Assembly: GCF_003330765.1 (NCBI RefSeq)
Contig: NZ_CP024903.1
Location: 3,100,001-3,164,000, forward strand
From: Burkholderia pyrrocinia
Lineage (GTDB): Bacteria > Pseudomonadota > Gammaproteobacteria > Burkholderiales > Burkholderiaceae
Direction: 5' to 3'
DNA: 64,000 bases
Part shown: one piece after another, positions 30,227-52,069 of the stretch
Layout: each line of letters begins with the position of its first letter
How positions within the stretch are numbered: the stretch's first letter is position 1
Made by a program: the position numbers and the translations under genes
The notes under the pieces: generated by a model
The model's database searches: none
Told to the model about the DNA's origin: nothing
Seen by the model: the letters and a program-made list of their open reading frames with translations, nothing else

Positions 30227-30733
30227 TCACGCATGCTGCTGCGGCAGCCGATGATAAGTGCGCCCGTGATACACGAGGCCCGAACACGCCGAACCAAGAT
30301 GTAACGCCTGCACGGCGCAGAAAAAGACGGTATGTGTGCCGATGTCGATGCTTCGGTCCACCGTGCAGTCGAGACTCGCAGCCGCAGTCGCCAGCACCGG
30401 CGCACCCGTGACGAGACGGGTCCACTCGCCGTACGTGAAGCGCTCGGTCATCTGCACATCTCCCTTGCCCGCGAAGATCGGTGCAAGCATTTCATGCTCA
30501 TGGGAAAGAACGTTGACACAGATGATGCCCGCCGTGCTGAAGTAGCCATATTGACGGCTGGACCGGCCTATGCAAACGAGCACCGTGGCGGGGTCATCGG
30601 TGACGGAGCACACCGCGGACACCGTCATGCCGACATCGCCAGAAGGTGTCGTGGTGGTGATGATATTCACCGCGGCACCGATACGGGCCATGGCTTCGCG
30701 GAAGGTCGTGCGGTCAGGGGAAAGTGCTATCAC
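30227..30733 (-). CDS. Flavin reductase, HpaC/RutF type
   Basis: A 168-residue NAD(P)H:flavin oxidoreductase that supplies reduced FMN or FAD to a partner monooxygenase. It begins MIALSPDRTTFREAMARIGA and shows the family's split-barrel motifs: NIITTTTPSGDVGMTVSAVC (flavin site), CIGRSSRQYGYF and CVNVLSHEHEMLA. A GTG start at 30733 is supported by AGAGAGGT 6 bases upstream. The obvious partner is the luciferase-like monooxygenase three genes upstream in the transcript. The 164 bp before it contain two interleaved inverted repeats. Confidence 0.88.
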   Translation of the reverse strand: MIALSPDRTTFREAMARIGAAVNIITTTTPSGDVGMTVSAVCSVTDDPATVLVCIGRSSRQYGYFSTAGIICVNVLSHEHEMLAPIFAGKGDVQMTERFTYGEWTRLVTGAPVLATAAASLDCTVDRSIDIGTHTVFFCAVQALHLGSACSGLVYHGRTYHRLPQQHA

Positions 30734-30766
30734 GGCGGTACCTCTCTCGGTTGACGGAACGGTGGT

Positions 30767-30822
30767 GCGGCTTCATGGCGGAGTGCCACAGGTACTTCCA
30801 TGAAGCCGCGTGGTGAAGTACC
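30767..30822 (-). promoter_or_regulatory. Interleaved inverted repeats in flavin reductase leader
   Basis: GCGGCTTCATGG (30767-30778) pairs perfectly with CCATGAAGCCGC (30798-30809). GGTACTTC (30791-30798) pairs with GAAGTACC (30815-30822). Read along the minus strand the order is A-B-A'-B', so the two helices interlock as a pseudoknot or exclude each other. It ends 34 bases before the flavin reductase start. It does not match the FMN riboswitch consensus. Overlapping operator half-sites are the alternative reading. Confidence 0.55.
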
Positions 30823-30897
30823 CGTGGCGTTGCACCGTTCATCGCCCGCGCTCCACCGTCGACGGGTTCTCGTGGGCAGTTGCGCTGCCGGCGATTC

Positions 30898-32805
30898 CTA
30901 TTGCTGGTGAACGGAAGCTGCTGACCCTGAACCGGCAAGCTGCTCCTTGATCAACTGTTCTTCGGCATCGTCGTAAAGGTCGGCAATAATGTGCACGTAG
31001 CGTGCCATCAATGCCTTGCGGCGCTTCTTGCGCGTGGCGGTCATCACTCCGTTTTCCGGTGTGAGTTCCTCGGGGAATATCCTGAACGCCTTGATCTGCT
31101 CTGCCCGCGCCAACTTCGCATTCGCCTTTTCCACTTCTTCACGGATCAGGTCGATAACGATCCGCGAGGTGGCCAGATCGGCGTACTGCGTGACCGAAGG
31201 GTCGCGTGTCCTTGCCCAGTCCATGGTGAGCGTGCCGTCGACTTCGATCAACGCCGTCAGATACTTGCGCCCTTCGCCAATCACCAGTGCCTCGGTAATG
31301 TACGGGCTCTGGCGAAGTTCGTTTTCGATCTGCACCGGGCTGATCGATTTGCCGGCGGCCGTATTGATAAGCTCTTTCTTTCGATCGATCAGCTTGTACG
31401 AACCGTCCGCGCCGACGTCGACGATGTCGCCGGTATACAGCCAGCCGTCCCGCAATGCGGCCTTGGTTTCGGCTTCCTTGTTCCAGTAGCCGATGAATAG
31501 CCCCGGCCCCCGAACGATCATCTCACCGTCCGGCAACACACGGGTTTCCCAGGCGGGGTCGTCAAGCGGCACGCCGGAGTTGCCAGGCCTCGACCAGTCG
31601 GTCACCTGCGCGAGGTTTCCGCCGACCATCTCCGTTTGCCCGTAATTCTCTTTCAGGTTGATGCCCCACAACTGGAACAGTGTGACGACCTCGGGCGGCA
31701 CTGGAGCGGAGGCCGTATACGGATAGCGCAAATCGTCGAAGCCGATTCTGGCCAGCAACGGCTTGAAAACGCGCTCACGACAGGTGGCGTAGAGCTGTTC
31801 CTTGAATGGGTCGCCCGTGCCTGCGTCCAGTCGATCGGCCAGCACTTCCCGCGCGATGCCAAGTGCGAGCTTGTAGTTTCTCTGCTCGGCTGCGCTGCTG
31901 CCATTTACGTGGTTGATGAGCTGGGTCGCGAACTTCTGATAGAAGCGCGGCGGCGCCATGTAGGACGTCGGTCTGACTTCCTGAATGCACTTCGCGAAAT
32001 CAGCCGACACGTCGACGAAGTAAGGTACCGTCTTCGCCATCAACGGCAGCGTCGTCGCCTGAATGCGCGCGACCGTGTGCGACAGCGGCAGATGGACCAC
32101 CATGCGCTGCGGTTCGGACAATATCGCCGGACAAAAGGTTGGCCACGTGAACGCGCCCGCCAGCATCGATACATGCGTCAGCATCGCACCTTTGGGCGCC
32201 CCCGTGGTTCCGGAGGTGTAACCCAGGCTCACCAGATCTGCCGGCCTCGCAAGCGAGGACTGCTCACGCAGATAAGCGACTTCGTCGCCGGCAAAATGCG
32301 ACGCGAACTCGGCGAGTGAAACGACATTCATGCCGGTTTCGCCAGGCGAGCGCTTCCAGTCCGGATCGAGCACCACGATTTTGAGGAGCCTGCGGGACGT
32401 ATCGGCCGCTTCCACGATCCGAAGCTGTTCAGCGCTTCCGGCAAAAGCGAGTCTCGCCCCTGAATCCTCCAGGTAGTAGCGGACCTCTTCGACCGACGCG
32501 GTGAAATAGACGCCTACTGTAACCGCTCCCGAGCAGATCGTCGCCATGTCGGCAATGAGCCACTCTCGGGATACGTCGCCCATGATGGCAATCCGATCGC
32601 CTCGTGCTACACCGGCCGCTCTAAGGGCTGCGGATACGGAACAGACTGCATTCGCATAGCCTTTCCAGGTGGTGGGTACCCACTCCCCGGCACGCTTCTG
32701 AAAGAACGCGTTTGTGTCGGCGTCGTTCTTCACGCGCTCGATCAGCAAGGCCGGAATAGTGACGGTCGCGAATTGACTGCCGGAAGTCCACGGTGCCGCG
32801 CTCAT
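30898..32805 (-). CDS. Long-chain-type acyl-CoA ligase (AMP-forming)
   Basis: A 635-residue adenylate-forming ligase making an acyl-CoA from acid, ATP and CoA. The P-loop is YTSGTTGAPKGAML, the A5 motif NYGQTEMVGGNLAQ, A7 LYTGDIVDVGADG and A8 LIDRKKELINTAAGKSISP; the Lys-rich end carries TATRKKRRKALM. Length and the IPALLIERVKNDADTNAF opening fit the COG1022 long-chain/aromatic group. The ATG overlaps the stop of the hydratase gene (ATGA), so the two are coupled. With the hydratase and the flavin monooxygenase it forms one operon. Confidence 0.92.
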   Translation of the reverse strand: MSAAPWTSGSQFATVTIPALLIERVKNDADTNAFFQKRAGEWVPTTWKGYANAVCSVSAALRAAGVARGDRIAIMGDVSREWLIADMATICSGAVTVGVYFTASVEEVRYYLEDSGARLAFAGSAEQLRIVEAADTSRRLLKIVVLDPDWKRSPGETGMNVVSLAEFASHFAGDEVAYLREQSSLARPADLVSLGYTSGTTGAPKGAMLTHVSMLAGAFTWPTFCPAILSEPQRMVVHLPLSHTVARIQATTLPLMAKTVPYFVDVSADFAKCIQEVRPTSYMAPPRFYQKFATQLINHVNGSSAAEQRNYKLALGIAREVLADRLDAGTGDPFKEQLYATCRERVFKPLLARIGFDDLRYPYTASAPVPPEVVTLFQLWGINLKENYGQTEMVGGNLAQVTDWSRPGNSGVPLDDPAWETRVLPDGEMIVRGPGLFIGYWNKEAETKAALRDGWLYTGDIVDVGADGSYKLIDRKKELINTAAGKSISPVQIENELRQSPYITEALVIGEGRKYLTALIEVDGTLTMDWARTRDPSVTQYADLATSRIVIDLIREEVEKANAKLARAEQIKAFRIFPEELTPENGVMTATRKKRRKALMARYVHIIADLYDDAEEQLIKEQLAGSGSAASVHQQ

Positions 32806-33602
32806 CTCCAGTTGTCTCCAAAGCGCTTGCGCCTTTCGGTGAACGAAGCCGCCGCTTCGCGGCGCTCGGGGGAATTGAACGTGATCGTCTCCAGAGCGAT
32901 CGACGTATCGAGTAGCAGATGAGCATTCTGCTTGACGAGCTTGTTGACACAGTATTTCGTCCAGACGATCGCGTCGCGCGGACCGCTCGCGAGCAGTTCC
33001 GCGTAATCGATCGCCGCCTCCAGCAGCTTGTCGCTTTCGACGATCTTGTTGATCATCCCCATCGTCAGCGCTTCCTCGGCGCTGACGAAGTCGCCCGTCA
33101 TCAGATAGTGCCGAGCGCGGACCGGCCCGAGAAGAAGCGGCCAGATCACCGCACCACCGTCGCCGGCCACGACACCGGCATTGACGTGCGTATCGGCGAA
33201 CCGTGCGGTCGGGCTCGCATAAATCATGTCGCAGAACAGCGCCAGCGTCGCGCCCAGACCCACGGCCACGCCATTGACCGCCGCCACGATCGGCACCTCG
33301 ACCTCGAGCATGTTTCTCACGAGGTGACGGCCGCCGCGCGTCGCCGACGGGATATCGCCATTGTCGATCGACTTCTGATCGCCGCCGGAGCAGAAACCGC
33401 GGCCGGCGCCGGTCAATACGATCGCCTTGACCGATTTGTCGTGATCCAGATCGACGAACACCCGTTCCAGCTCGCTGTGCATGTCCCAATTGATGGCGTT
33501 CAGGATTTCCGGGCGATTCATCGTGACAATCGCGACACCGGAGGACCGTTGTTCGACATTCAGATACTGATAGCGCGAAGACGTATTCATACCTAGATTC
33601 AT
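32802..33602 (-). CDS. Enoyl-CoA hydratase/isomerase family protein
   Basis: A 266-residue crotonase-fold enzyme. The oxyanion-hole segments are AGRGFCSGGDQKSI and VNGVAVGLGATLALFCDMIY. The usual Glu at the second catalytic position appears replaced by the AGVVAGDGGAVIWPLLLG loop, where Asp-Gly-Gly resembles hydratases and hydrolases of CoA-thioester catabolism. The ATG at 33602 overlaps the stop of the monooxygenase gene (ATGA); another ATG at 33590 is possible. It likely acts on the CoA ester made by the adjacent ligase. Confidence 0.88.
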   Translation of the reverse strand: MNLGMNTSSRYQYLNVEQRSSGVAIVTMNRPEILNAINWDMHSELERVFVDLDHDKSVKAIVLTGAGRGFCSGGDQKSIDNGDIPSATRGGRHLVRNMLEVEVPIVAAVNGVAVGLGATLALFCDMIYASPTARFADTHVNAGVVAGDGGAVIWPLLLGPVRARHYLMTGDFVSAEEALTMGMINKIVESDKLLEAAIDYAELLASGPRDAIVWTKYCVNKLVKQNAHLLLDTSIALETITFNSPERREAAASFTERRKRFGDNWR

Positions 33603-34753
33603 CCTTGAGTTTGCTGCGGGTTGGCAGCCTGCGGGCGCATGGCGCGAATCTTCTCGAGCAACTCCTCGGTCGGGCGGACGATATTGTTTCGATCGTTGAA
33701 ATGAGGAATCACGTAGCGCCCCACCATTTCGATCGTCGACATGATCTGCTCGTGCGGTACCGAGTCGATATGCAGCAGCACCTCGTCGATTCCGAGCTTC
33801 TCGTATTGCTCCAACTGACGGATGACGGTATCGGGGCTTCCGCACACCGTGGTGGCGGATTCGTTCAGGAGGTAGTCCCAATCTTCGGCGGCGCGTTGCA
33901 TCGCAGGCACGCTTTCGGCCATGTACGCGTAGTTGTCCGCGAGTTTGGCGAGCCGCGGATAGGCATCGGTCGAGATGCGCGCATAGTTCATGATCGCGCG
34001 GGCGTAAATGTCCTTCGCTTCCTGGTCGGTCTTGCCGATACCGATGAAGATCGGCATGCCGGCACGCGGCTTGTGCAACGGTCCGGTCTCATCGCGCTTC
34101 CAGCTCTTCCAGTAGGTGTCCAGCAGACCCTTCTGTTTTTCCCATCCCTGATAAATCGCATGACTCATCACCGCGAGGCCTTCCGATCCAGCCCAAGCAT
34201 GGCTGTTCGCGCTGGTGGCGGCAACGCCGAGCACGGGATACGGTTTTTGCAACGGCTTCGGCACGAGTGACCGGGGCGGCACCTGGTAATACTTCCCTTC
34301 GAAGGTGAAAACGTCCTCACGCATCGCTTTGCGCAACAGCGCCATACCCTCTTCCATTTGCGGAAGGGTTTCCTCGGGCGATACGTTGAACGCGCGCATG
34401 GCGATCGTCGTGTTGGCGCGACCGCAATACATCTCCATCCGGCCGTCGGAGAGGATGTCGGTGGCCGCCAGCCGTTCCGCGGTACGCAGTGCGTGATTGA
34501 TGGCCTTCGGCATCAACGCCACGGCAGGACGAAGCTTGATTCGCGAAGTGACGGCCGCGAGATAACCAAAGACCACTTCAGGCGCCGAACTCGACACTCC
34601 GCCAAGCGCAAAGTGCTGCTCCGACAAAGCAACAAAGTCGAAACCCATTTGCTCGGCGAACAGTGCTTCGCGAACCAGCTCGCGAAGCCTGTTCGAGTAG
34701 CTATGCCCGACCTGCGTCTCCTGCTCGGACCAAAAACCAAATTTCAATGGCAT
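33599..34753 (-). CDS. Luciferase-like flavin-dependent monooxygenase
   Basis: A 384-residue LLM-class TIM-barrel enzyme that uses reduced FMN and O2. It starts MPLKFGFWSEQETQVGHSYS; the ATG at 34753 has AAGGAAA 5 bases upstream. Family features include AEQMGFDFVALSEQHFALGG, TSRIKLRPAVALMP, ILSDGRMEMYCGRANT (flavin phosphate region) and VCGSPDTVIRQLEQYEKLGI near the C-terminus. The flavin reductase at 30227 is the probable electron donor. It heads the operon monooxygenase, hydratase, ligase. The substrate is unknown; relatives oxidise alkanes, sulfonates, heterocycles or chelates. Confidence 0.88.
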   Translation of the reverse strand: MPLKFGFWSEQETQVGHSYSNRLRELVREALFAEQMGFDFVALSEQHFALGGVSSSAPEVVFGYLAAVTSRIKLRPAVALMPKAINHALRTAERLAATDILSDGRMEMYCGRANTTIAMRAFNVSPEETLPQMEEGMALLRKAMREDVFTFEGKYYQVPPRSLVPKPLQKPYPVLGVAATSANSHAWAGSEGLAVMSHAIYQGWEKQKGLLDTYWKSWKRDETGPLHKPRAGMPIFIGIGKTDQEAKDIYARAIMNYARISTDAYPRLAKLADNYAYMAESVPAMQRAAEDWDYLLNESATTVCGSPDTVIRQLEQYEKLGIDEVLLHIDSVPHEQIMSTIEMVGRYVIPHFNDRNNIVRPTEELLEKIRAMRPQAANPQQTQG

Positions 34754-34885
34754 TTTCTTTTCCTTGACAGTCGTAATTTGAAAATTCACCGCGTGGGCGA
34801 ACTGTTTCCGAGGTTCGGGTCACTGTCATGCCGTTGAACCATGAACATTGCCCTTGCGCTTGATTTCGGAACGTCTCGTCGATAG

Positions 34886-35043: not shown

Positions 35044-35823
35044 TTACGCCGATGATTCGGCCGCAAATGCCGACGCGAGAAGTCTGGCCGTCGCACGCAG
35101 ACAGGCCTCGCCAATCTCGCGTGATGATCCTCGTGCATCGCCGAGCACGCCGTTTCGGGAGATGGACGCCACGCCTTCCTTCCACATCCGGTTCAATTGC
35201 TCGGTCGTCATGACGCCCACATGGCCTGCCGTGAGTTGAGCGAGTCGAACACTGTCGGGATGAAGGTGGATCATGAGGGAGGTTTCGGCGATGTCGGCGT
35301 GCCCGCCCACGGATTCCGGATCGCCGCCGGCTTCCTCGACCGCCAGCCGCCATTCACGCAGCCACGCCTGATGATTCGTATAGGCAAGCACCTGCACGTC
35401 CGGCCCGACAGCCTGTCGCAATCCCGGCAACATCGCATGAAGGGTATTGAAGTTGCCGACATGCGCCGAGAACAGGTAGATGCGCTTGAATCCGTGTGTT
35501 GCGAGGCTCACGCAGTAATCGTGGCAGAGTGCGGCATACGTGTGCTCCTGCAACGAGATCGTGCCCGGGAAGGCCATGTGGTGCTTCGAGCATCCTGCTT
35601 GTATCGTCGGTGCGATCAGGGTTCGCCCCAGCAACGTGGCGACTTCCACCGCTAGCGCGTCAGCATGATCGGCATCCATGCTCAGCGGCAGATGGGGGCC
35701 GTGCTGCTCGATTGCGCCGCAAGGAATGATGACACGATCGAACTGCGTGTCCAATGCGGCCGTCACGTCCTCATACGTCATGCGCGCGAGATGCAGCGTT
35801 TCCGGTAGTTGGCGATTGCCCAC
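35044..35823 (-). CDS. Creatininase-family amidohydrolase
   Basis: A 259-residue metal-dependent hydrolase of the creatininase superfamily, which opens cyclic amides or splits C-N bonds. Metal ligands appear in PCGAIEQHGPHLPLSMDADH (Glu, His, Asp) and GGHADIAETSLMI (His, Glu). The usual NGHGGN loop is SAHVGNFNTL here, keeping the His and Asn. GTG start at 35823 with AAGAAGGA upstream. It sits 2 bp after a hydratase gene, so they form one operon. In this setting it may hydrolyse a ring-opened or N-formyl intermediate; creatinine itself is unlikely. Confidence 0.85.
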   Translation of the reverse strand: MGNRQLPETLHLARMTYEDVTAALDTQFDRVIIPCGAIEQHGPHLPLSMDADHADALAVEVATLLGRTLIAPTIQAGCSKHHMAFPGTISLQEHTYAALCHDYCVSLATHGFKRIYLFSAHVGNFNTLHAMLPGLRQAVGPDVQVLAYTNHQAWLREWRLAVEEAGGDPESVGGHADIAETSLMIHLHPDSVRLAQLTAGHVGVMTTEQLNRMWKEGVASISRNGVLGDARGSSREIGEACLRATARLLASAFAAESSA

Positions 35824-35825
35824 GA

Positions 35826-36590
35826 TCAGTCCTTCTTGTTGCGGTTCAGAAACCTGGATCTTGCGTCCGCGGTCTTCGCGTTACCGAGATATCCACGCAG
35901 GTCATCGAGCGTCATCTGCAGCAGAGCTGCGTCGTTCATCCGTGGACTCTCGCGCAGCGTTCTCTTGATGGCGGCGAAGAGTTGGCGATCTTTGGCGCAA
36001 AGCTCGCGGCATTTGGCCAGCGCGTCTCGCAGCGTCTCATCGCGCGCGGATATCGTGTCCACCGCGCCTATCTCGAGCGCTTCTCCGGCAGTGATCAGTT
36101 CGCCGGAAAAAAGCAGCGAACGCGCGGCACGTTGACCCAGCAGGGCCGATGCGTGGCGCATGCCTTTCGCCGCGGGCAGCAAGCCGTGATTGATCTCGGG
36201 AAATCCCAGCCGGGATTCAGCGGACGCGACGACGTAATCCGCATGCAGCACCATTTCGAATCCGGCGCCCACTGCATAGCCGTTGACCGCGCACACGAGC
36301 GGGCTCGGATACTGCTCGAGTTGCGCCAGGAACGCGTGGAACGCTTCCATGCGCGACAGCGCGAGATCATGGTCCGCCACTTCATTGATATCGCCGCCGG
36401 CACAAAAGAACTTCTCTCCCGCCCCGGTGAGCACGATGCCGGGTGGCACGTCTTGTTGAGCGAGGTCGCGGAAAATGGAAATCAATGCGGTGATGAGCGG
36501 TTCGCTCAGCGCGTTCGCCGGTGGCCGGTTGATCGTCAGCCGCACAATGTCCGCGTCGACGTATGTGCAAATCAATTCGTCGGTTTTCAT
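35826..36590 (-). CDS. Enoyl-CoA hydratase/isomerase, second copy
   Basis: A 254-residue crotonase-fold protein: INRPPANALSEPLI, AGEKFFCAGGDINEVADHD (oxyanion hole 1), VNGYAVGAGFEMVLHADYVV (oxyanion hole 2) and SRLGFPEINHGLLPAAKGMR with Glu-Ile-Asn at the acid/base position. It differs substantially from the copy at 32802, so the two probably act on different intermediates. It is first in its operon and divergent from the AraC gene at 36782 with 191 bp between them. Confidence 0.9.
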   Translation of the reverse strand: MKTDELICTYVDADIVRLTINRPPANALSEPLITALISIFRDLAQQDVPPGIVLTGAGEKFFCAGGDINEVADHDLALSRMEAFHAFLAQLEQYPSPLVCAVNGYAVGAGFEMVLHADYVVASAESRLGFPEINHGLLPAAKGMRHASALLGQRAARSLLFSGELITAGEALEIGAVDTISARDETLRDALAKCRELCAKDRQLFAAIKRTLRESPRMNDAALLQMTLDDLRGYLGNAKTADARSRFLNRNKKD

Positions 36591-36781: not shown

Positions 36782-37630
36782 GTGGAACCTGAAACTCCGG
36801 AAATCCGTATGTCCGCTTCGCGAGGCATGACAGACCAGGTGAAGATCAACTATCAACCGTTCGATCCGGACTTAGTCGATTTGCCGGTCATTTCCGTTCT
36901 TCTGGAGACGATTGGAAAAGAGGATGAGCTGCCGATGCACGTTCATCGCAAGGGGCAAATGGTCGTCGCATTGAGCGGGTCGGTCATGTGCCGATCACCG
37001 AGCGGATGGTGGATCGTCCCGCCCAACGGGGCGGTGTGGATTCCGGGTGGCATTCCTCACAGCAATCATGCTTCCGATTTCGCCAAGCTGTACGTCATCT
37101 TCATTCCACCGGACGAAGCCGGTCTGCCCACCGACTGCCGCAGCTTTACGATCACGCCACTCATCCGCGAGCTGATCCGTTCGCTGGCCCGATTCCCACC
37201 CGACTATCCGAAGGACGGCCCGGTAGGTCGGCTCGCCAGAGTATTGCTGGATCAGCTTGCGCTGCTGGCGCCCGACGACGTCTTTCTCCCAATCTCCGAC
37301 AATCCCCGGCTTCAACAGATCGCCTCGGCGTTGCTCGACAACCCCGCCGACCGCAGCACGATCGCGGAATGGGGGCGCCGATATGCGATGAGCGAACGTA
37401 CGCTCGCGCGGCTGGTACGCAGCGAAACCGGCATGACCTTCGGGCGCTGGCGCGAGCGTCTGCATATCATCATTGCGCTTCAACGATTGTCGGCAGGCGC
37501 GTCGGTTCACGCCGTAGCGCTCGAGCTCGGTTATGAAGGTCCGAATTCGTTCATCACCATGTTCAAGAAGACCATGGGACGAAGTCCCGGCAGATTTCGA
37601 GTGGACAAGAAGGAGGCTTCGTCGCGTTGA
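36782..37630 (+). CDS. AraC-family regulator (cupin plus HTH), copy 1
   Basis: A 282-residue regulator with an N-terminal cupin (MHVHRKGQMVVALSGSVMCR, WWIVPPNGAVWIPGGIPHSN) and a C-terminal double helix-turn-helix (WGRRYAMSERTLARLVRSET and VALELGYEGPNSFITMFKKT). GTG at 36782 gives the longest form; ATGs at 36809 and 36827 are alternatives and none has a strong ribosome binding site. It is divergent from the hydratase-amidohydrolase operon and is the obvious candidate to activate it. It is closely similar in layout to the AraC gene at 47798. Confidence 0.88.
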   Translation: MEPETPEIRMSASRGMTDQVKINYQPFDPDLVDLPVISVLLETIGKEDELPMHVHRKGQMVVALSGSVMCRSPSGWWIVPPNGAVWIPGGIPHSNHASDFAKLYVIFIPPDEAGLPTDCRSFTITPLIRELIRSLARFPPDYPKDGPVGRLARVLLDQLALLAPDDVFLPISDNPRLQQIASALLDNPADRSTIAEWGRRYAMSERTLARLVRSETGMTFGRWRERLHIIIALQRLSAGASVHAVALELGYEGPNSFITMFKKTMGRSPGRFRVDKKEASSR

Positions 37631-37667: not shown

Positions 37668-39305
37668 TCACAGCTGGCGCGCTCGCTCCCGCAAGTTGAA
37701 CTTCTGGATCTTGCCGGTCGCAGTCTTCGGCAGTGGCGAGAACACAATGGTCTTGGGCACCTTGAAATGTGCCAGCCGCTCGCGGCAAAACGCGATGATG
37801 TCCGCTTCGGTCACGACCGAATCGTCTTTGAGCGTGATGAAAGCGCAAGGTGTCTCGCCCCACTTGTCGTCGGGACGCGCGACGATTGCCGCCTCCAGAA
37901 CAGCGGGATGGGAATACAGTATGTCCTCGATCTCGATCGACGAAATGTTTTCGCCTCCCGAGATGATGATGTCCTTCGAGCGATCCTTGATTTCCAGGTA
38001 GCCATCGGGATGCCATACCCCGAGATCGCCCGTATGAAACCACCCGCCGGAAAATGTCTCCACTGTGGCGCTCGGATTCTTCAGGTAGCCCTTCATGACG
38101 TTGTTGCCGCGCAGGAATACCTCGCCGAGCGTTTGCCCGTCTTTTGGAACGGGCTCCAGCGTATCCGGGTTTGCCACCATCACTGCCTCGAGAACAGGGC
38201 CGCGTACACCCTGGCGGGCCTTGAGTCGCGCTTTCGCATCGAGATCGAGCGCATTCCACGACTCGCGCCATACGCATTGCACGACCGGCCCATAAGACTC
38301 GGTCAACCCATAGGCATGTGTCACCTCCCAGCCCATGCGCTCCATGCCGGCGATCACCGAAGCCGGCGGTGGCGCACCGCCGGTCATGACCTTGACTCCG
38401 TGACGAATGCCCGCCTTCAGCTCCGGCGCGGCGTTATTGATCATGTTCAACACCACGGACGCGGCACAAAAATGCGTGACCGCCTCGGTGCGGATGGCGG
38501 TGAGAATCTTCTCGGCCCGCGTATGGCGTAGGAAGACACTGGTGCCGGCCACCAACGCCATGGTCCAGGGAAAGCACCAACCATTGCAATGAAACATCGG
38601 TAAGGTCCACAAATAGGTCGTGTCCTCGTCCAGATGCCACGATAGTGCATTCGACACGGCGTTCAGATATGCGCCGCGATGGTGATACACCACGCCTTTT
38701 GGATTGCCCGTCGTGCCCGATGTGTAGTTTAGCGAAATGGCCTGCCATTCGTCTTCCGGCATCGCGAGAGAGAATTCAGTGTGCATGGCCTCATGCAGCA
38801 ACGCTTCGTAGTCTTTTTCGCCGAGCAGATCACCTTCTCCACACTGAGGATCGTCGATGTCGATGACCTGAATGACGCGACCAAGACGTGCCAGAGCTTT
38901 CTTCACCGTCGGGGAGAATTCGCGGTCGGTGATTAGCAGCTTCGCGTCGCCGTGGTCGAGAATGAAAGCGATCGTGTCGGCATCGAGCCGTGTGTTGATG
39001 GTATTCAGTACGGCGCCGCAAAGCGGTACACCGAAATGCGCCTCGAACAGTTCCGGCGTATTGGCCGCGATCATCGCCACCGTATCGCCGTTGCCAATGC
39101 CGCGCCCGCGCAGCGCACCGGCGAGCAGCCGGCAACGTCGATAGGTTTCGGCCCAGTCGCGGCGAATCGTGCCATGCACGATGGCCGTGCGCACCGGCCA
39201 GACAGACGCGGCGCGTTCGAGAAACGTCAGCGGCGACAAGGCAACGAAGTTCGCCCGGTCTCGCTCGAGTCCGATCGTATAAGGATTGTCCGCCGGTGTT
39301 TTCAT
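37668..39305 (-). CDS. Acyl-CoA ligase (AMP-forming), second type
   Basis: A 545-residue ligase of the medium-chain/DmdB-like type. P-loop LNYTSGTTGNPKGVVYHHRG, a WTLPMFHCNGWCFPWTM segment typical of this subgroup, THAYGLTESYGPVVQCVW, WFHTGDLGVWHPDGYLEIKD, RSKDIIISGGENISS, and the catalytic Lys in PLPKTATGKIQKFNLRE. It is convergent with the AraC gene (37 bp apart) and preceded by a 200 bp gap, so it may have its own promoter. A different acid from that of the first ligase is likely. Confidence 0.92.
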   Translation of the reverse strand: MKTPADNPYTIGLERDRANFVALSPLTFLERAASVWPVRTAIVHGTIRRDWAETYRRCRLLAGALRGRGIGNGDTVAMIAANTPELFEAHFGVPLCGAVLNTINTRLDADTIAFILDHGDAKLLITDREFSPTVKKALARLGRVIQVIDIDDPQCGEGDLLGEKDYEALLHEAMHTEFSLAMPEDEWQAISLNYTSGTTGNPKGVVYHHRGAYLNAVSNALSWHLDEDTTYLWTLPMFHCNGWCFPWTMALVAGTSVFLRHTRAEKILTAIRTEAVTHFCAASVVLNMINNAAPELKAGIRHGVKVMTGGAPPPASVIAGMERMGWEVTHAYGLTESYGPVVQCVWRESWNALDLDAKARLKARQGVRGPVLEAVMVANPDTLEPVPKDGQTLGEVFLRGNNVMKGYLKNPSATVETFSGGWFHTGDLGVWHPDGYLEIKDRSKDIIISGGENISSIEIEDILYSHPAVLEAAIVARPDDKWGETPCAFITLKDDSVVTEADIIAFCRERLAHFKVPKTIVFSPLPKTATGKIQKFNLRERARQL

Positions 39306-39508: not shown

Positions 39509-40657
39509 TCAAACTTCCTGATAGTCGTGGATACGCTCTATTTTTCTTTGCTCCACCACGTTCAAGCCGTAGCCCTCTAGGCCCACGATCGTTCTTTCAT
39601 GATTGGAGAGCAGGATCATGTTCTTCACGCCGAGTTCGGTGAGGATTTGCGCGCCTATTCCGTAATCACGCAGTTCCGGCTCGGCAGGCTTGGGGTGCAT
39701 CATGGAACGCACACGTTCGGACACGGCCGTGAGGCGCGACTCGCGGATCACCACGATGACGCCGCGGCTCTCACCCGCCAGCAAACGCGCGGCGCCGCGT
39801 AGAGACGCGAGGTGGTGACCGCCGATGACGTCGTTCATGGTATCCATCGCGTGCATGCGCACGAGAACAGGGTCGGCTCCCCGTAGATCGCCCATGACGA
39901 AGGCGATATGCTCGACCTGATCGACCTGGTTCCGGTAGACCACGATCCGCCAATGCCTGCCATTCGGCTCGGTAAAGCTCCCGTGTTCAACGGCCTCCAC
40001 GAGCCTTTCCGTTCGTCGGCGGTACGCGATGAGATCGGCGATCGTGCCCAGCTTCAGTTGATGCCGCCGTGAAAAGGCGATGAGATCCGGCAGCCTCGCC
40101 ATGGTGCCGTCGTCGTTCATGATTTCGCAGATTGCACCGGCTGGCGCGAGCCCGGCCAGACGGGCGATATCTACCGCCGCCTCGGTATGACCCGCGCGCA
40201 CGAGCGTGCCGCCGTCGCGCGCCATGAGCGGAAAGACATGCCCGGGAGAAACGAGCTCGTCGGGGCCCGTTTCCGGATTGACCGCAATCGAAATCGTGCG
40301 GGAACGGTCGGCCGCCGAGATGCCCGTACTCACACCGTCACGCGCCTCGATCGACACCGTGAAGGCCGTCTCGTGCCGCGAGCCGTTGATTCGACTCATT
40401 AGATGCAAGCCCAGCGATTCGCAGCGCGAGCGTGTCATCGCGAGGCAGATCAAGCCACGCGCATGCGTCGCCATGAAGTTGACGGCGTCAGGCGTGGCGA
40501 ATTGCGCGGGAATGATAAGGTCGCCTTCGTTTTCGCGATCCTCGTCGTCGACCAGAATGAACATGCGCCCGGCGCGCGCTTCTTCGATAATCTCCGACGC
40601 CGTTGCGATGTCGGCGCGCGAATCCACCGGCAGCCGGGCGGACGTTGCGTTACTCAT
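39509..40657 (-). CDS. DHBP synthase (RibB) with degenerate GCH II half
   Basis: A 382-residue RibBA-shaped protein. The N-terminal 3,4-dihydroxy-2-butanone-4-phosphate synthase domain is intact: DDEDRENEGDLIIPA, ATHARGLICLAM, RAGHTEAAVDIARLAG and CEIMNDDGTMAR. In the C-terminal GTP cyclohydrolase II domain the zinc site is lost: where CLTGD and RCDCG are expected it reads HAMDTMNDVIGGHH, with none of the three Cys. RDYGIGAQILTELGV and GLEGYGLNVVE remain as scaffold. It should therefore make only the butanone precursor of riboflavin. A spare RibB inside a flavin-monooxygenase cluster suggests extra flavin supply. GAGGTG lies 6 bases before the ATG. Confidence 0.9.
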   Translation of the reverse strand: MSNATSARLPVDSRADIATASEIIEEARAGRMFILVDDEDRENEGDLIIPAQFATPDAVNFMATHARGLICLAMTRSRCESLGLHLMSRINGSRHETAFTVSIEARDGVSTGISAADRSRTISIAVNPETGPDELVSPGHVFPLMARDGGTLVRAGHTEAAVDIARLAGLAPAGAICEIMNDDGTMARLPDLIAFSRRHQLKLGTIADLIAYRRRTERLVEAVEHGSFTEPNGRHWRIVVYRNQVDQVEHIAFVMGDLRGADPVLVRMHAMDTMNDVIGGHHLASLRGAARLLAGESRGVIVVIRESRLTAVSERVRSMMHPKPAEPELRDYGIGAQILTELGVKNMILLSNHERTIVGLEGYGLNVVEQRKIERIHDYQEV

Positions 40658-44602: not shown

Positions 44603-44763
44603 ATTCGCCTCCAACAGCAAGCGTTTCAACAGTCGGCGCTCCTCTTCATCTGGCCGGACGCACTTGATTCGATCGGATTGCCCAGGATGGACCGATGAAC
44701 GCGCGAAGCCTTCGAGCAGCCGATTCGCGCACCGCTCTCATGGCGCGCACCGGTCAACGGGTC

Positions 44764-47478
44764 CTAGACAAGCCAGGGCTCGATCAGCCCGCTTCCGATT
44801 CGCCCATATCGGTCGATCGCCTGACGCACGATGCCCGGGTCCTGCTGGCCGTCGTCGACGAGTGCTTTCAGCGCGGCGATCACGATCGACGCACGGTCCA
44901 CTTCGAAGAACGCCCGCAACGCCGCACGTGTATCGCTGCGCCCGAAGCCGTCGGTGCCGAGCACGACATAGCGGGACGGCACGTACGCGCGGATCAGTTC
45001 GGGCACGGCGCGCACATAGTCGGTCGCGGCGATCACCGGTCCACGCGCGGCGCCCAGGGCTGCCGTCACGTAGGGCACCGCAGGCTCGCCACGCTCCAGC
45101 AGCCGCTGCGCGCGCTCCGCGGACACGCCGTCGCGATGCAATTCGGTAAAGCTCGTCACGCTCCAGACGGCCGCGTCGATATTCCAGTCGTCTTTCAACA
45201 TCCGTGCCGCGGCCTGGACTTCACCGAGAATCGCGCCCGAGCCCAGCAACTGCACCTGTGCGATCTCGACCTGCGCAGGCTCCAGCACGTACATCCCCTT
45301 GAGCACGCCGCGCCGGACGCGATCGACATCCGCTTCAGTCAACGGACGCTGTGCGTAGTTTTCGTTGGTGACCGTGATGTAGTAAAACACGTCGCGCTGA
45401 CGCGCGATCATCTCCTGCATGCCTTCGTCGACGATCATCGCCACTTCGTACGCGAAGGCCGGATCGTACGCACGGCAGTTCGGTATCGTCGAGGCTGCAA
45501 GGTGGCTCGTGCCGTCCTGATGCTGCAGACCTTCACCACCGAGCGTCGTCTTGCCAGCCGTCGCGCCGATCAGGAAACCGCGCGCGCGCTGGTCGGCAGC
45601 CGCCCAGATCAGGTCGCCGATACGCTGGAAACCGAACATCGAGTAGTAGATATAAAACGGCAGCATCGTCAGATCGTGCACGCTGTAAGACGTCGCCGCG
45701 GCAATCCACGACGACACCGCGCCCGCCTCGGAAATGCCTTCTTCCAGAATCTGGCCGCTCGTATCCTCACGGTAATAGAGCATCGAACCCATGTCTTCCG
45801 GCTCGTACAGTTGACCGAGCGGAGAATAGATGCCAACTTGCCGGAACAGATTGGCCATGCCGAAGGTGCGTGCCTCGTCGGCGACGACGGGCACCACACG
45901 CGGCCCCAGCTCGGTGTCCTTCAACAGGTTGCCGAGCATGCGCACGAACGCCATCGTGGTGGACATTTCCTTGTCGTTGGTGTCGAGCGCGAATCGTCCC
46001 CACGACGACATCGCAGGCACGGCCGGCGCGTGCGATGCCGCCGTGCGCCTTCGGGGAAGGTAGCCGCCCAGCGCCGCACGGCGCTCGTGCAGATACTGCA
46101 TGACGGCACTGCTTTCGTCCGGTTTGTAGAACTTGAGTTGTTCGACATCATCGTCGGAAAGTGGCAGACGAAAGCGCTCGCGAAACGCCTTCAACTGGTC
46201 GATGTCGAGCTTCTTTTGCTGATGCGTTGTCATGCGCCCCTGGCCGATCGAGCCCATGCCGAAGCCCTTCATGGTCTTCGCGAGAATGACCGTGGGTTGC
46301 CCGTTGTGTTTCGACGCCTTTTCGTATGCAGCGTGCAATTTGCGCACATCGTGGCCGCCGCGCCGCAGGCGGTCGATATCGTCGTTGCTCAGATGCGCGG
46401 CGAGCGCGGCCAGCTCGGCGTTCTGACCAAAAAAGCGTTCGCGATTGTAGGCGCCGTCGTTGGCGGAAAAAGTCTGGAACTGGCCGTCCACGGTGTGCGC
46501 GAACGCGCGCAACAGCGCCCCCGTGCGATCACGTGCGAACAGGGCGTCCCAGTCCGAACCCCACAACACCTTGATGACGTTCCAGCCCGCTCCCGTGAAC
46601 TGCGCTTCGAGTTCGTCGATGATGCGGCCATTGCTGCGCACGGGTCCGTCGAGCCGCTGCAAATTGCAGTTGATCACGAACACGAGATTGTCGAGTCCCT
46701 CGCGCGCGGCCAGCGAAAGCGCGCCGATTGCCTCGGGTTCGTCCATTTCGCCATCGCCGAAATAGCCCCACACCTTTCGGCCTTCCGTGCGTTGCAGTCC
46801 GCGGTTCTGCAGATAACGCATGAAACGCGCCTGGTAGATCGAATTGATCGGCCCGATACCCATCGAGCCGGTCGGGAACTGCCAGAAGTCCGGCATCAGC
46901 CACGGATGAGGATAGGAACACAGGCCCGCACCGGTGATTTCCTGTCGGTAATGCTCGAGATGCGTCTCGTCGAGAAAGCCCTCGAGGTAAGCCCGCGCGT
47001 ACACACCTGGCGCGGAATGAGGTTGAAAATAGACGAGATCGCCACCGTGAGCATCATTCGGTCCACGAAAGAAATGATTGAAGCCGACTTCGAACAGGTC
47101 AGCCGCCGACGCATAGCTGGCAATATGCCCGCCGAGTTCACCGTAGGCACGATTGGCCCGCACCACCATGGCCAGCGCATTCCAGCGCAGCGCGGCGGCG
47201 AGCTTTTCTTCGATATCGAAGTCGCCCGGATACGGCGGCTGCTGATCGACGGTAATCGTATTCGCGTAGGGCGTGATATTGAGGCGCGCCGTTGCGATAC
47301 CGTTGGACGAAGCGTGGGCCGCGAGCCGATCGAACAGGTACTGCGCCCGTTCGGCACCTGCATGCCGGACCACGCCATCGAGCGCGTCGAGCCATTCGGC
47401 TGTTTCCAGTGGGTCGTCGTCAACTTTCGTCTGACCCAGGGAAAGAATCGAGGGTGTCCCCGTCGATAAGTCGGTCAT
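44764..47478 (-). CDS. aceE: Pyruvate dehydrogenase E1, homodimeric type
   Basis: A 904-residue thiamine-diphosphate enzyme decarboxylating pyruvate. The ThDP/Mg motif is GYFGDGEMDEPEAIGALSLA ending in NLVFVINCNLQ. Further hallmarks are LMPDFWQFPTGSMGIGPINS, ILAKTMKGFGMG, and AGKTTLGGEGLQHQDGTSHL in the C-terminal half. The ATG at 47478 has GGAG 8 bases upstream. Order E1-E2-E3 with gaps of 161 and 94 bp suggests one transcript. Since the genome almost surely has a housekeeping set, this copy is likely induced to process pyruvate or a related 2-oxo acid from the catabolic route around it (inference). Confidence 0.94.
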   Translation of the reverse strand: MTDLSTGTPSILSLGQTKVDDDPLETAEWLDALDGVVRHAGAERAQYLFDRLAAHASSNGIATARLNITPYANTITVDQQPPYPGDFDIEEKLAAALRWNALAMVVRANRAYGELGGHIASYASAADLFEVGFNHFFRGPNDAHGGDLVYFQPHSAPGVYARAYLEGFLDETHLEHYRQEITGAGLCSYPHPWLMPDFWQFPTGSMGIGPINSIYQARFMRYLQNRGLQRTEGRKVWGYFGDGEMDEPEAIGALSLAAREGLDNLVFVINCNLQRLDGPVRSNGRIIDELEAQFTGAGWNVIKVLWGSDWDALFARDRTGALLRAFAHTVDGQFQTFSANDGAYNRERFFGQNAELAALAAHLSNDDIDRLRRGGHDVRKLHAAYEKASKHNGQPTVILAKTMKGFGMGSIGQGRMTTHQQKKLDIDQLKAFRERFRLPLSDDDVEQLKFYKPDESSAVMQYLHERRAALGGYLPRRRTAASHAPAVPAMSSWGRFALDTNDKEMSTTMAFVRMLGNLLKDTELGPRVVPVVADEARTFGMANLFRQVGIYSPLGQLYEPEDMGSMLYYREDTSGQILEEGISEAGAVSSWIAAATSYSVHDLTMLPFYIYYSMFGFQRIGDLIWAAADQRARGFLIGATAGKTTLGGEGLQHQDGTSHLAASTIPNCRAYDPAFAYEVAMIVDEGMQEMIARQRDVFYYITVTNENYAQRPLTEADVDRVRRGVLKGMYVLEPAQVEIAQVQLLGSGAILGEVQAAARMLKDDWNIDAAVWSVTSFTELHRDGVSAERAQRLLERGEPAVPYVTAALGAARGPVIAATDYVRAVPELIRAYVPSRYVVLGTDGFGRSDTRAALRAFFEVDRASIVIAALKALVDDGQQDPGIVRQAIDRYGRIGSGLIEPWLV

Positions 47479-47797: not shown

Positions 47798-48673
47798 TCA
47801 CACATCGGCCACCACGCCCGCTGGACCATCCGCTCGGTCGTCCATCCCGGTCGAAGCCGTCGACGCGAGGACCGCCCCCGACTGCGTGCGCGCCAGCGCG
47901 GCGAAGTAGCGGCCTGGCGAATGCCCGAGCGCTTTCTTGAACATGATGATGAAGGCAGTTACCGACTCGTAGCCGAGTTCGTCCGACACGCGTTGCACGG
48001 AAGCGCCGCCGGCAAGCTCGCGCACCGCAACGAGCAGTTGCAACTGCTGCCGCCAGCGGCCAAAGGTCAGTCCCGTTTCACTGACGACGAGTCTTGCCAG
48101 CGAACGCTCGCTCATGGCGACACGCTTGGCCCATTGCGCGACGGTGCTGCGATCGCCGGGATTGGCGTTCAACGCGTCCGCCATCTGCCGGATTCGCGGA
48201 TGATCCGTAACCGGCAGATAGAGGCGCTCGACCGGCATCAACGTCAGCTCATGCAACAGCACGCGCGCAAGCCTGTCGGTATGGCCGCCCTGCTCATAGT
48301 CCAGCGGCGCGTCGGCCAGATGCAGGATCATTTCCCGCAGCATCGGCGAAATGGACAGCGTGCAGCAATCCGTTGGCAAGTCGACGATACCGGGCTCTGC
48401 GAACAGATAGCAAAGCCGGGCATTGGGCGTGGCGTGGTTGCTGTGCGGCATCTCGCCAGGAATCCAGACGCCGCATTGCGGCGGGACGATCCAGAACGCG
48501 CCCGCGACCCGACAGGTTACGGCGCCGTGCAACGCCAGCACCAGTTGCCCCTTCAGATGTTTGTGAACAGGGATTTCGGAAGCATGCTCGTCGACGTGCA
48601 TGCGCATCGCTACCGCCGGCCGATCGATCGCGTCGGGATCCACAAAATCAGGAAGACTAACGTAGCGGTTCAT
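47798..48673 (-). CDS. AraC-family regulator (cupin plus HTH), copy 2
   Basis: A 291-residue paralogue of the AraC gene at 36782. Shared motifs include VHKHLKGQLVLALHGAVTCR, FWIVPPQCGVWIPGEMPHSN, MSERSLARLVVSETGLTFGR and SDELGYESVTAFIIMFKKAL before GHSPGRYF. Its tail is longer and Ala/Gly-rich. The likely targets are the PDH genes downstream and the transporter-porin pair that diverges from it. The start at 48673 is an ATG without a strong ribosome binding site. Confidence 0.88.
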   Translation of the reverse strand: MNRYVSLPDFVDPDAIDRPAVAMRMHVDEHASEIPVHKHLKGQLVLALHGAVTCRVAGAFWIVPPQCGVWIPGEMPHSNHATPNARLCYLFAEPGIVDLPTDCCTLSISPMLREMILHLADAPLDYEQGGHTDRLARVLLHELTLMPVERLYLPVTDHPRIRQMADALNANPGDRSTVAQWAKRVAMSERSLARLVVSETGLTFGRWRQQLQLLVAVRELAGGASVQRVSDELGYESVTAFIIMFKKALGHSPGRYFAALARTQSGAVLASTASTGMDDRADGPAGVVADV

Positions 48674-49472: not shown

Positions 49473-50822
49473 ATGGAAATACGGCAAATCAACGTCTACG
49501 ATGTCATCGACAGTCGCAGAATCGGCAGGAGGCAGTATTTCATCGTCGCCTTCTGTGCGCTGCTCATGCTGTTCGATGGCTTCGACACCCAGGTCATCAG
49601 CTTCATCGTGCCCGTTCTCGCGAAAGAATGGCAACTGCCCAAGGCAGTATTCGGCGCGATTTTTTCGGCTGTTTTCTTCGGGCTACTAATCGGCAACTTC
49701 GGCATTCCGTTCGCGACTCGGCGCTTCGGCACGAAGAAGATTGCTTTCGTGGCAACCGCTGCTTTCGGTCTGTTCACCGTCCTGACCGTTTTTGCCACCA
49801 GCGTGCCGCAACTGATCGCCTTGAGATTCCTTGCGGGCATCGGCCTCGGAGCGGCCACGCCTTGCGCGGTGGGCCTCGTTTCGGAATTCAGCCCGAAGAG
49901 AACCCGCGCGACTTTCGTCATTCTCGTCTACCTGGGATATGCGCTGGGATTCATCTTCGCGGGCGTCTGCAGTAGCGCCTTGATCCCGCGGTTTGGCTGG
50001 GAAGGACCACTGTGGCTGGGCGGGCTCGCGGCACTGGGCTTGACGGTGTTGCTTATCCCGCTGCTGCCGGAATCCGTGGCCTACCTGTCGGCAAATGCGG
50101 AGCCGGCCGAATTGCTTCGTGCAACCAAGCGCCTCTTTCCCGATTTCACGCTGCAATCGGACAGCGAACTGGTCACTCACGAAGAGAAGCCGGCGGACGC
50201 AAGTGTGCTCGGATTGTTCTCCGCACAATTCCGCGTGGGGACATTCCTGCTTTGGGCCGTATTCGCCATCAACCTGGCCGCTTTCTATTTTCTGCAAAGC
50301 TGGCTGCCGACCGTTCTCGCGTCCATCTCGTTCCCACCCGCGCTCGTGGTCTGGGCGACCATCACCGTGATCATCGGCGGCATGGTGGCCAGTCTGCTGA
50401 TGGGACCCATCATGGATCGCACGAGCCCTTACAGAATCCTGTCCGCGGTCTACGTCGGCGGCGCCGTGTCAATGTACGCGATCTCCATGGCAATCGGCTC
50501 ATCGCATCTCGCTTTACTCACGACGATCTTCTTTTGCGGCTTTTGCATCAGCGGCGGACAAACCTGCGCGATCGCGTTGTGCACGCTCTTCTATAGCCCG
50601 GAATTGCGCGCCCCGGGCGTCGCATGGGCCTATGGATTCGGTCGGCTCGGCGCCGCGGGCGGCACTTACCTCGCGGGCGTCCTGTACGCGAACAACTGGA
50701 CCGTCGACGCGATGTTTCGTGTTGCAGCAGCGCCAATACTCGTTGCAGCGGCTTGCGTGGCCCTGATGGGCGCTTCCTATGGCCTGACGAAAAACGGCCT
50801 GAAGAAATCCTTCTCAGCCTGA
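49473..50822 (+). CDS. MFS transporter, aromatic acid:H+ symporter type
   Basis: A 449-residue twelve-helix transporter of the AAHS group. The first helix carries ALLMLFDGFDTQVISFIVPV with the DGFDT motif typical of PcaK/BenK/MhpT, and the loop GLLIGNFGIPFATRRFGTKK matches the signature after helix 2. RFLAGIGLGAATPCAVGLVS and FSPKRTRATFVILVYLGYAL are the helix 4-5 motifs. AGAGGAGAAC stands just before the ATG. It probably imports the acid that the nearby CoA ligases activate. Confidence 0.9.
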   Translation: MEIRQINVYDVIDSRRIGRRQYFIVAFCALLMLFDGFDTQVISFIVPVLAKEWQLPKAVFGAIFSAVFFGLLIGNFGIPFATRRFGTKKIAFVATAAFGLFTVLTVFATSVPQLIALRFLAGIGLGAATPCAVGLVSEFSPKRTRATFVILVYLGYALGFIFAGVCSSALIPRFGWEGPLWLGGLAALGLTVLLIPLLPESVAYLSANAEPAELLRATKRLFPDFTLQSDSELVTHEEKPADASVLGLFSAQFRVGTFLLWAVFAINLAAFYFLQSWLPTVLASISFPPALVVWATITVIIGGMVASLLMGPIMDRTSPYRILSAVYVGGAVSMYAISMAIGSSHLALLTTIFFCGFCISGGQTCAIALCTLFYSPELRAPGVAWAYGFGRLGAAGGTYLAGVLYANNWTVDAMFRVAAAPILVAAACVALMGASYGLTKNGLKKSFSA

Positions 50823-50896
50823 CCTGCACCACGTGCTGAATCGATGAACGTCAGATGAACGGTTCCTGTGTATTGCCTTTGAAATGCGGAGATCTC

Positions 50897-52069
50897 ATGA
50901 AAACGAAAAAAATCGAAATGATTGTCGGCTCGCTCATGGGGCTGGCCAGTTCCGTCGCGCATAGCCAAAGCAGCGTAACGCTCTATGGCGAGATCGACAA
51001 CGGTATTCATTACCAGACCAACGTAGGCGGCGGCAAAGCTGTCTACATGGACTCGCTGGACGGCATCGACGGCAGTCGCTGGGGGCTGACCGGCAAGGAA
51101 GATCTGGGAGGCGGTCTCAAGGCGGTTTTTACGCTCGAGTCCGGCATCGACGTGAATAACGGACGACTTGCCCAGGGCGGCACGGCGTTTGGCCGGCAAG
51201 TTTTCGTCGGACTGAGCAGTGACACTTACGGTTCTCTCACCGTCGGCCGTCAATACGACATGGTGTGGTATTTCCCCGAGTTTCTTGCCGGTGCCGCAGC
51301 GGTTGGCGACCTGGCGAGCGCGCATCCGGGAGATTTCGACAACACCAGTAACAGCGTGCGATTCAACAACTCGGTGCGCTACATGAGCCCGGACTTCCAC
51401 GGCTTCTCCTTTGGCGCCGCATATAGCCTTGGCGGCGTGCCCGGCGACTTCACTTCGACGTCGGGCTATTCGCTTGGAGTCGGTTACACACACGGTCCGC
51501 TTCAGATCGGCGCGGCGTTCGATTACTTCAAACACCCGACATCGACACCAGGTAACGGATGGTTCACCAACTATGCAAGCGGCTTCAATCTGCTAGCCTC
51601 TTCCCTGAACTCGGCTTATCAGGTCGCGCAAGCCTATCAGGACGCCGTCATCGCGGCGGCCTACACGATCGGAAACGCGACGATCAGCGCGTCGTACTCG
51701 AATGTTCAATACGCCAATCTCGGTGCGTCGTTCCAGAACGGTACGGCCATCTTCAACAATTTTGACATTGGTTTGAACTACCGTGTCACGCCGGCTTTTT
51801 TCGTCGGCGTTGCGTATGACTACATGAAAGCGCGGAGCGTCACGACGGCACAAGGCAATTCCATCGGCAATCAGCACTACAATCAGGTGGCGTTCACGCT
51901 GGACTATCTGCTGTCGAAGCGTACCGACGTATACTTTTCGGGCGGCTGGCAACGCGCTTCCGGCACATCGTCGACGGGCGCGCTGGCGGTCGCCAACATT
52001 GGCGGATCCGGAGATTCATCGAATAACCACCAGATGGTTTATCGGCTCGCTATACGACATAAATTCTGA
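50897..52069 (+). CDS. Outer-membrane porin, second copy
   Basis: A 390-residue Porin_4 beta-barrel. Signal peptide ends SVAHS before QSSVTLYGEIDNGIHYQTNV. Internal strands include SRWGLTGKEDLGGGLKAVFT and GSLTVGRQYDMVWYF, and it ends LAIRHKF with the terminal Phe. The ATG at 50897 has GGAG 7 bases upstream. It follows the MFS gene by 74 bp on the same strand, forming an outer/inner membrane uptake pair for the catabolic substrate. Confidence 0.92.
   Translation: MKTKKIEMIVGSLMGLASSVAHSQSSVTLYGEIDNGIHYQTNVGGGKAVYMDSLDGIDGSRWGLTGKEDLGGGLKAVFTLESGIDVNNGRLAQGGTAFGRQVFVGLSSDTYGSLTVGRQYDMVWYFPEFLAGAAAVGDLASAHPGDFDNTSNSVRFNNSVRYMSPDFHGFSFGAAYSLGGVPGDFTSTSGYSLGVGYTHGPLQIGAAFDYFKHPTSTPGNGWFTNYASGFNLLASSLNSAYQVAQAYQDAVIAAAYTIGNATISASYSNVQYANLGASFQNGTAIFNNFDIGLNYRVTPAFFVGVAYDYMKARSVTTAQGNSIGNQHYNQVAFTLDYLLSKRTDVYFSGGWQRASGTSSTGALAVANIGGSGDSSNNHQMVYRLAIRHKF

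Follow-up and report, generated by a model that had tools for sequence, protein, structure and literature searches.

A candidate gene cluster for coenzyme A-dependent degradation of fusaric acid or a related pyridine-2-carboxylate in Burkholderia pyrrocinia

The genome of Burkholderia pyrrocinia (assembly GCF_003330765.1) carries on contig NZ_CP024903.1 a catabolic gene cluster that includes a luciferase-like flavin-dependent monooxygenase (LLM), two coenzyme A (CoA) ligases, two crotonase-fold proteins (here ECH1 and ECH2), a creatininase-family hydrolase and a 2-oxoacid dehydrogenase complex. We analysed a window of 64,000 nucleotides (contig positions 3,100,001–3,164,000; coordinates below are positions in this window), in which the cluster occupies 30227–52069. 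Judging from sequence comparisons, the cluster probably encodes a catabolic set for fusaric acid (5-butylpyridine-2-carboxylate) or a close 5-substituted picolinate; that it belongs to a broader class—a pyridine-2-carboxylate, fusaric acid included, opened as its CoA ester—we hold with rather more confidence. This reading draws on gene content, conservation, active-site residues, the class of the dehydrogenase E1 and the presence of the cluster in a fusaric-acid isolate; from these we infer the substrate, each reaction and the reaction order.

All the named genes are open reading frames (ORFs) and are in place according to the window ORFs and family models, so that the grouping into one island proposed in an initial annotation holds. 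The first minus-strand block (36590–30227) encodes, in order of transcription, ECH1 (35826–36590), the creatininase-family hydrolase (35044–35823), the LLM (33599–34753), ECH2 (32802–33590), the AMP-binding CoA ligase A (30898–32805; FadD11-like, with a C-terminal AMP-binding_C_3 domain and a start codon that overlaps the ECH2 stop) and a flavin reductase (30227–30733). An AraC-type regulator gene, AraC1 (36782–37630, plus strand), is divergent from this block.

Scanning genome contigs with an alignment of LLM sequences yielded 57 loci, to which four plasmid loci were added, giving 61 proteobacterial loci that were scored: eight from Burkholderia or Paraburkholderia, 38 from a rhizobial group (mainly Bradyrhizobium and Rhodopseudomonas, with one Mesorhizobium and some metagenome-assembled genomes), eight from Azospirillum, four from sphingomonads and three others. 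Most come from one genome per species and are thus related, not copies of one record. Besides the LLM, present by construction, ligase A, ECH2, the creatininase-family protein and AraC1 occurred in 61 of the 61, ECH1 in 59 (both misses sit at contig or locus ends) and the flavin reductase in 58. As the LLM, ligase A, both crotonases and the creatininase-family hydrolase stay together in 59–61 of the 61 loci, the core is not a chance neighbourhood. Because many loci came with no more than 10 kb of flanking sequence, the figures for genes further out are minima: at least 48 of the 61 for the Lrp regulator and at least 34 for RibB. All six core genes, flavin reductase included, were also found on a Streptomyces plasmid (32–46% identity), and core carriers span Bradyrhizobium, Rhodopseudomonas, Azospirillum, sphingomonads, Pararhodobacter, Tistrella and Streptomyces. 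A FUSC-type efflux gene adjoins the Azospirillum versions in five of eight loci, which we counted in favour of the fusaric acid reading.

More distant versions on two Pseudonocardia plasmids and one Arthrobacter plasmid hold an LLM, an ECH1-like crotonase, a ligase, an amidase, an aldehyde dehydrogenase and a RidA-type protein; the creatininase and ECH2 are absent beside the LLM on these three plasmids. On the Pseudonocardia plasmids (L086, L121) the cassette, which also includes a flavin reductase, is bracketed by IS3-type transposase genes. A related cassette (L101, L114) combines an LLM, flavin reductase, aldehyde dehydrogenase, EthD-type protein and Lrp, with RibBA added on pYKAM101 and an amidohydrolase in Arthrobacter crystallopoietes, and a plasmid of Aminobacter sp. 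MSH1 (L102) holds an LLM, two deformylase-type genes, a gamma-glutamyltransferase, an aldehyde dehydrogenase and a flavin reductase.

The LLM (PF00296, 160 bits, scored over the ORF 33599–34789) and the RutF/HpaC-type flavin reductase (PF01613, 127 bits; the RutF model gave 182 bits, below its cut-off of 255) belong to the two-component class, the reductase being the proposed partner that feeds the LLM; the predicted LLM structure (mean per-residue confidence, pLDDT, 52.5) was not used. In a tree of 28 rows, the window LLM falls within a group of 25 (support 100/99) that also holds the LLM adjoining the tetramethylpyrazine oxygenase subunit TpdB on Rhodococcus opacus pR1CP1 and the LLM of the Arthrobacter sp. 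68b plasmid p2MP, with RutA and SsuD outside. LLMs among these relatives open pyridine and tetramethylpyrazine rings, with C–C cleavage next to the nitrogen, and the p2MP cluster has a pyridine function. The p2MP locus resembles ours in bringing together an LLM, flavin reductase, amidohydrolase, RidA and riboflavin kinase, but CoA ligase and crotonase are missing from its 17 listed features, a succinate-semialdehyde dehydrogenase is present and the LLM is just 30% identical. Similarly, the pR1CP1 locus has an LLM beside TpdB, an amidase and a flavin reductase, with a thiamine-type dehydrogenase E1 nearby, but its 13 listed features include neither CoA ligase nor crotonase and its LLM is 34% identical. 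The uracil (Rut) pathway of Escherichia coli shares an LLM, the flavin reductase RutF, an amidohydrolase and the deaminase RutC; however, RutA lies outside the group on a long branch and the operon lacks CoA ligase and crotonase.

The two crotonases, both taken as hydratases in the initial annotation, differ at the active site. ECH1 carries E112 and E132, which align with the glutamates of 4fzw_A and are kept in 61 of 61 rows, as expected of a hydratase. ECH2 has T115 and H135 at those positions in all 62 ortholog rows (two far actinobacterial rows, L086 and L087, 34–35% identical, were set aside), so of the two proteins ECH1 alone keeps the glutamates of a hydratase. A His...GDG...WP stretch of ECH2 aligns with the beta-diketone hydrolase Alr4455 (2j5g), a type to which 6-oxocamphor hydrolase (1szo) also belongs, and all 62 ortholog rows keep H135 and D144. 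In crotonase-fold diketone hydrolases, such a His/Asp pair is catalytic. Overall, ECH2 is nevertheless closer to EchA15-type proteins. By these alignments, ECH2 is a probable C–C hydrolase of the beta-diketone type. The creatininase-family protein (PF02633, 213 bits), a proposed deformylase or amidohydrolase from a family that includes a formamide-cleaving enzyme, keeps the polar site residues E39, H41, D50 and H121 in 62 of 62 rows; these residues presumably have a metal role.

The second minus-strand block (48673–37668) encodes the regulator AraC2 (47798–48673), the three dehydrogenase components—a homodimeric E1 (44764–47478), an E2 (43271–44629; TIGR01348, 580 bits, cut-off 552) and a lipoyl-domain dihydrolipoyl dehydrogenase, E3 (41437–43176; TIGR01350, 480 bits, cut-off 409)—and then the Lrp/AsnC regulator (40680–41189), a RibB with a degenerate RibA domain (39509–40657; TIGR00506, 240 bits, cut-off 177; TIGR00505, 46 bits against a cut-off of 206) and the acyl-CoA synthetase ligase B (37668–39305; PRK08162, 882 bits, cut-off 677). 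The E1 passes two models, with 1819 bits for TIGR03186 (cut-off 1408) and 1400 bits for aceE (cut-off 860). As a control we used the genome's own E1 encoded beside E2 and E3, taken as housekeeping, which scored 1306 for TIGR03186, under the cut-off, and 1538 for aceE. With a TIGR03186 score above both the cut-off and its aceE score, the cluster E1 falls in the MdeB-type class, and ortholog records name the gene mdeB, with the product alpha-ketoglutarate dehydrogenase. In Pseudomonas putida, MdeB acts on 2-oxobutyrate; a literature search on MdeB found no paper. These family scores, with the genome's aceE-type E1 as control, disfavour the dedicated pyruvate dehydrogenase that had been proposed here.

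Related clusters point the same way. Genes for propionyl-CoA carboxylase or methylmalonyl-CoA mutase lie near 15 of the 38 rhizobial-group clusters, 11 within the original flanks and four more among seven extended loci, the three other extended stretches showing none. RidA, which acts on 2-iminobutyrate, is present in part of the actinobacterial versions. Together, the E1 type, the propionyl-CoA genes and RidA make 2-oxobutyrate to propionyl-CoA a likelier endpoint than the earlier suggestion of pyruvate to acetyl-CoA, as far as sequence can tell. The genome itself carries prpF, a marker of the methylcitrate cycle (768 bits, cut-off 441), and this cycle is a propionyl-CoA sink. The cluster holds an annotation trap: the protein labelled a 'pyruvate' or 'alpha-ketoglutarate' dehydrogenase and one of those labelled 'enoyl-CoA hydratase' probably have none of these functions.

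An MdeB-type E1 was found in 20 of the 61 loci as first covered, two of these being truncated copies, and in L095 and L096 after extension. The cluster E1 is cut short in Paraburkholderia caledonica (L030/L098) and Paraburkholderia sp. BL9I2N2 (L088), with 350 and 235 residues matched; the genome G102, one of these two Paraburkholderia, has longer E1 copies elsewhere. A second MdeB-type E1 occurs in the B. pyrrocinia genome on the same contig at 2886752–2889472 (L108). It is 77% identical, scores 1702 bits with TIGR03186 and is flanked by Lrp-like matches, and a RES/Xre antitoxin model also matches nearby; no methionine gamma-lyase was found beside it among the seven ORFs scanned (E 1e-10).

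The link to a substrate comes from Burkholderia sp. IMCC1007, which was enriched on fusaric acid as sole carbon source and clears 50 mg/L within 14 h (PMC10293998). L027, one of the 57 loci, belongs to this strain; there the cluster runs from the flavin reductase gene into the E3 gene, where the contig ends, at 92% DNA identity. Within the same genus, Burkholderia ambifaria T16 shows the phenotype that we propose for this cluster: it is reported to draw carbon, nitrogen and energy from fusaric acid (PMC10728271). As fusaric acid is a nitrogen source for T16, the ring nitrogen must be released. Among titles and abstract openings from literature searches on the gene set and on fusaric acid genetics, none assigns the cluster, a survey that did not cover the contents of the T16 study. 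Going by its title, a 2023 study by Vinacour et al. (doi 10.1128/aem.00630-23) genetically dissects fusaric acid degradation in B. ambifaria T16. That work may stress propionyl-CoA metabolism. The cluster may already be assigned, if the T16 fusaric acid genes are its orthologs. The earlier statement that no named pathway with this gene set is known is doubtful, given the fusaric-acid isolate that carries the cluster and the published work on B. ambifaria.

We propose the following route. Substrate would enter through the porin and the AAHS-type symporter, and ligase A would form a picolinoyl-type CoA ester. The LLM, served by the flavin reductase and by flavin that the extra RibB would help to supply, would open the ring between C5 and C6 to give an N-formyl enamide with a ketone on C5. 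Formamide or amide hydrolysis by the creatininase-family enzyme would then release C6 as formate, and ECH2 would cleave C4–C5 hydrolytically, in a retro-Claisen reaction with electrons passing into the CoA thioester, to valerate and a 2-aminocrotonyl-type CoA ester. ECH1 would hydrate or deaminate that ester towards 2-oxobutyrate, which E1–E2–E3 would convert to propionyl-CoA, while ligase B would activate valerate for beta-oxidation to propionyl-CoA and acetyl-CoA. In the carbon bookkeeping for 5-butylpicolinoyl-CoA, C1–C4 would become the 2-oxobutyrate skeleton, and C5 plus the butyl chain would become valerate, predicting two propionyl-CoA per molecule of fusaric acid. Opening at C5–C6, loss of C6 and cleavage at C4–C5 would give ligase A, the LLM, the creatininase, ECH2, E1–E2–E3 and ligase B a role all at once. 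Of the pathway sketched in the initial annotation—an acid with a C–N bond or ring that is activated to CoA, oxygenated by a two-component flavin system and cleaved hydrolytically—the chemistry is supported as inference; the pyruvate/acetyl-CoA endpoint is the part that we replace.

Several observations weigh against the fusaric acid scheme. The phenotype link is a single isolate, and in the accessible part of their report the IMCC1007 authors credit nic genes for fusaric acid and do not mention the present cluster (PMC10293998). Among solved structures, ECH2 matches EchA15-type proteins best, and as these have the same His and Asp, the motif extends beyond the diketone hydrolases. The cluster E1 is also over the aceE cut-off, and the NCBIfam label of TIGR03186 is alpha-ketoglutarate dehydrogenase. 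Whole-genome searches of 24 carriers showed no MdeB-type E1, just 26–31% matches, in 12 (these include Tistrella, four Azospirillum and three sphingomonads), so the E1 step is not general; in these carriers another enzyme must finish the route, or the route must end differently, which weakens the endpoint for the wider family, not for the Burkholderia version. A molybdenum hydroxylase large subunit adjoins the core in eight of the 38 rhizobial-group loci (L078, L080, L046, L048, L053, L055, L040, L079) and has no place in the proposed scheme. FUSC-like matches occur in just two of 53 non-Azospirillum proteobacterial loci. Ligase B is confined to Burkholderia-type clusters, and a different ligase stands in its place in three of eight Azospirillum loci. 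The 25-row LLM group has unsettled inner branching, paralogs without assigned function and flagged long branches. Finally, among seven intergenic stretches compared for a common upstream motif there was a single weak 14-mer pair (LLM/creatininase gap and major facilitator superfamily (MFS)/AraC2 gap), which was also obtained in two of ten simple shuffles and lends co-regulation no support.

Two further molybdenum hydroxylases were noted: a different one lies upstream in L035, and on the Azospirillum oryzae plasmid one lies downstream together with a gene for cytochrome c.

The alternative that survives best keeps the same ring-opening chemistry and makes picolinate or another pyridine-2-carboxylate the general substrate; fusaric acid would then be one substrate at best, and its use would fall to the Burkholderia version, which has ligase B in addition. 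The spread of the core over many genera with differing neighbouring transporters (branched-chain-type ABC, DctP-type, or MFS plus a TonB receptor) fits this idea, as does the presence of ligase B, at ≥72% identity, in just seven of the 61 loci, all of Burkholderia type. We nonetheless consider it unlikely: FadD-like ligase A is in every locus and such ligases would suit a lipophilic acid, and the sole phenotype link is to fusaric acid. Somewhat less likely still is some other N-heterocyclic or amide-bearing acid, with IMCC1007 holding the cluster by coincidence and degrading fusaric acid with nic genes. For it speak the nic proposal in the accessible part of that report (PMC10293998), the smallness of a sample of one strain, the molybdenum hydroxylases and the carriers without an MdeB-type E1. 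No nic model is among the family matches listed for the cluster proteins, and no search aimed at nic was made in the window or the genus. Against coincidence, the LLM ortholog occurs in just three of the 64 other Burkholderia genomes and IMCC1007 is a carrier, and propionyl-CoA genes and an MdeB-type E1 suit an alkyl-picolinate. Very improbable is the version of the initial annotation, in which some other acid would reach acetyl-CoA by way of a dedicated pyruvate dehydrogenase. In its favour, the E1 passes the aceE cut-off and the E2 model match is an acetyltransferase; against it, the order of the E1 scores is the reverse of that in the genome's aceE-type E1, and propionyl-CoA genes adjoin the rhizobial-group clusters noted above.

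The cluster appears, by comparison with plasmids and relatives, to be horizontally spread and mobile. With B. pyrrocinia itself, four of 65 Burkholderia genomes carry an LLM ortholog. A 204-kb Burkholderia cepacia plasmid matches the window at 90–93%, with two short gaps, from 30185 as far as the compared plasmid stretch extends (52623, so the match may be longer), and on it the shared stretch abuts TniA/TniB/TniQ-type genes; a P. caledonica plasmid matches 30227–52671, with gaps. The limits 30227–52069 set in the initial annotation nearly coincide with these shared stretches. From 53300 onward (53378 in one), the window sequence is common to four relatives at 92–93%, and 54400–56400 is matched in 65 of 65 genus genomes. 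G+C content is 0.57–0.64 inside 30–54 kb, 0.66–0.69 to the right and mixed on the left (0.56–0.68). The window looks like a mosaic, as the left stretch 8000–10800 and the right flank have their best matches on separate contigs in eight of eight relatives. Six of these relatives are assemblies of 3–7 contigs, and one of the eight (G054) additionally has weaker matches of 70–76% at a distance of about 18 kb from the right flank.

The remaining genes of the unit, on the plus strand, encode the AAHS-type aromatic acid/H+ symporter (49473–50822; TIGR00895, 322 bits, below the cut-off of 419) and the outer-membrane porin (50855–52069; PF13609, 161 bits). The AraC2 gene shows DNA cross-matches of 67–71% with that of AraC1. 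At the right end of the unit lies a small ORF of 96 amino acids (52148–52438, minus strand); at this place a DUF4148 gene is annotated in the record of the B. cepacia plasmid. To the left, 20373–29060 encodes a protein of 2,895 amino acids with GH94/glycoamylase domains, and the 3′ part of its gene is matched in 11 of 65 genus genomes including its own (71–73% in the others). No RNA families or tRNAs were found in the 64-kb window, and promoter and terminator scans gave matches no more numerous than in shuffles.

With this proposal, an island of no stated function becomes a pathway that can be tested, for a fungal plant toxin that matters to crops, and pyridine ring opening at the level of the CoA ester is suggested; the LLM and ECH2 could serve as marker genes for predicting which soil bacteria may degrade fusaric acid. 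If the T16 genes prove to be these, the substrate is known, and the novelty would lie in how far the core extends across phyla and in the stepwise scheme. More tentatively, and with odds somewhat against it, the core may represent a general aerobic CoA-dependent route for pyridine-2-carboxylates in Alpha- and Betaproteobacteria and Streptomyces, in which the LLM would open the CoA ester and a crotonase-fold hydrolase would split the chain by vinylogous retro-Claisen cleavage to 2-oxobutyrate; if true, this would be the N-heterocycle counterpart of the phenylacetyl-CoA and benzoyl-CoA (box) routes.

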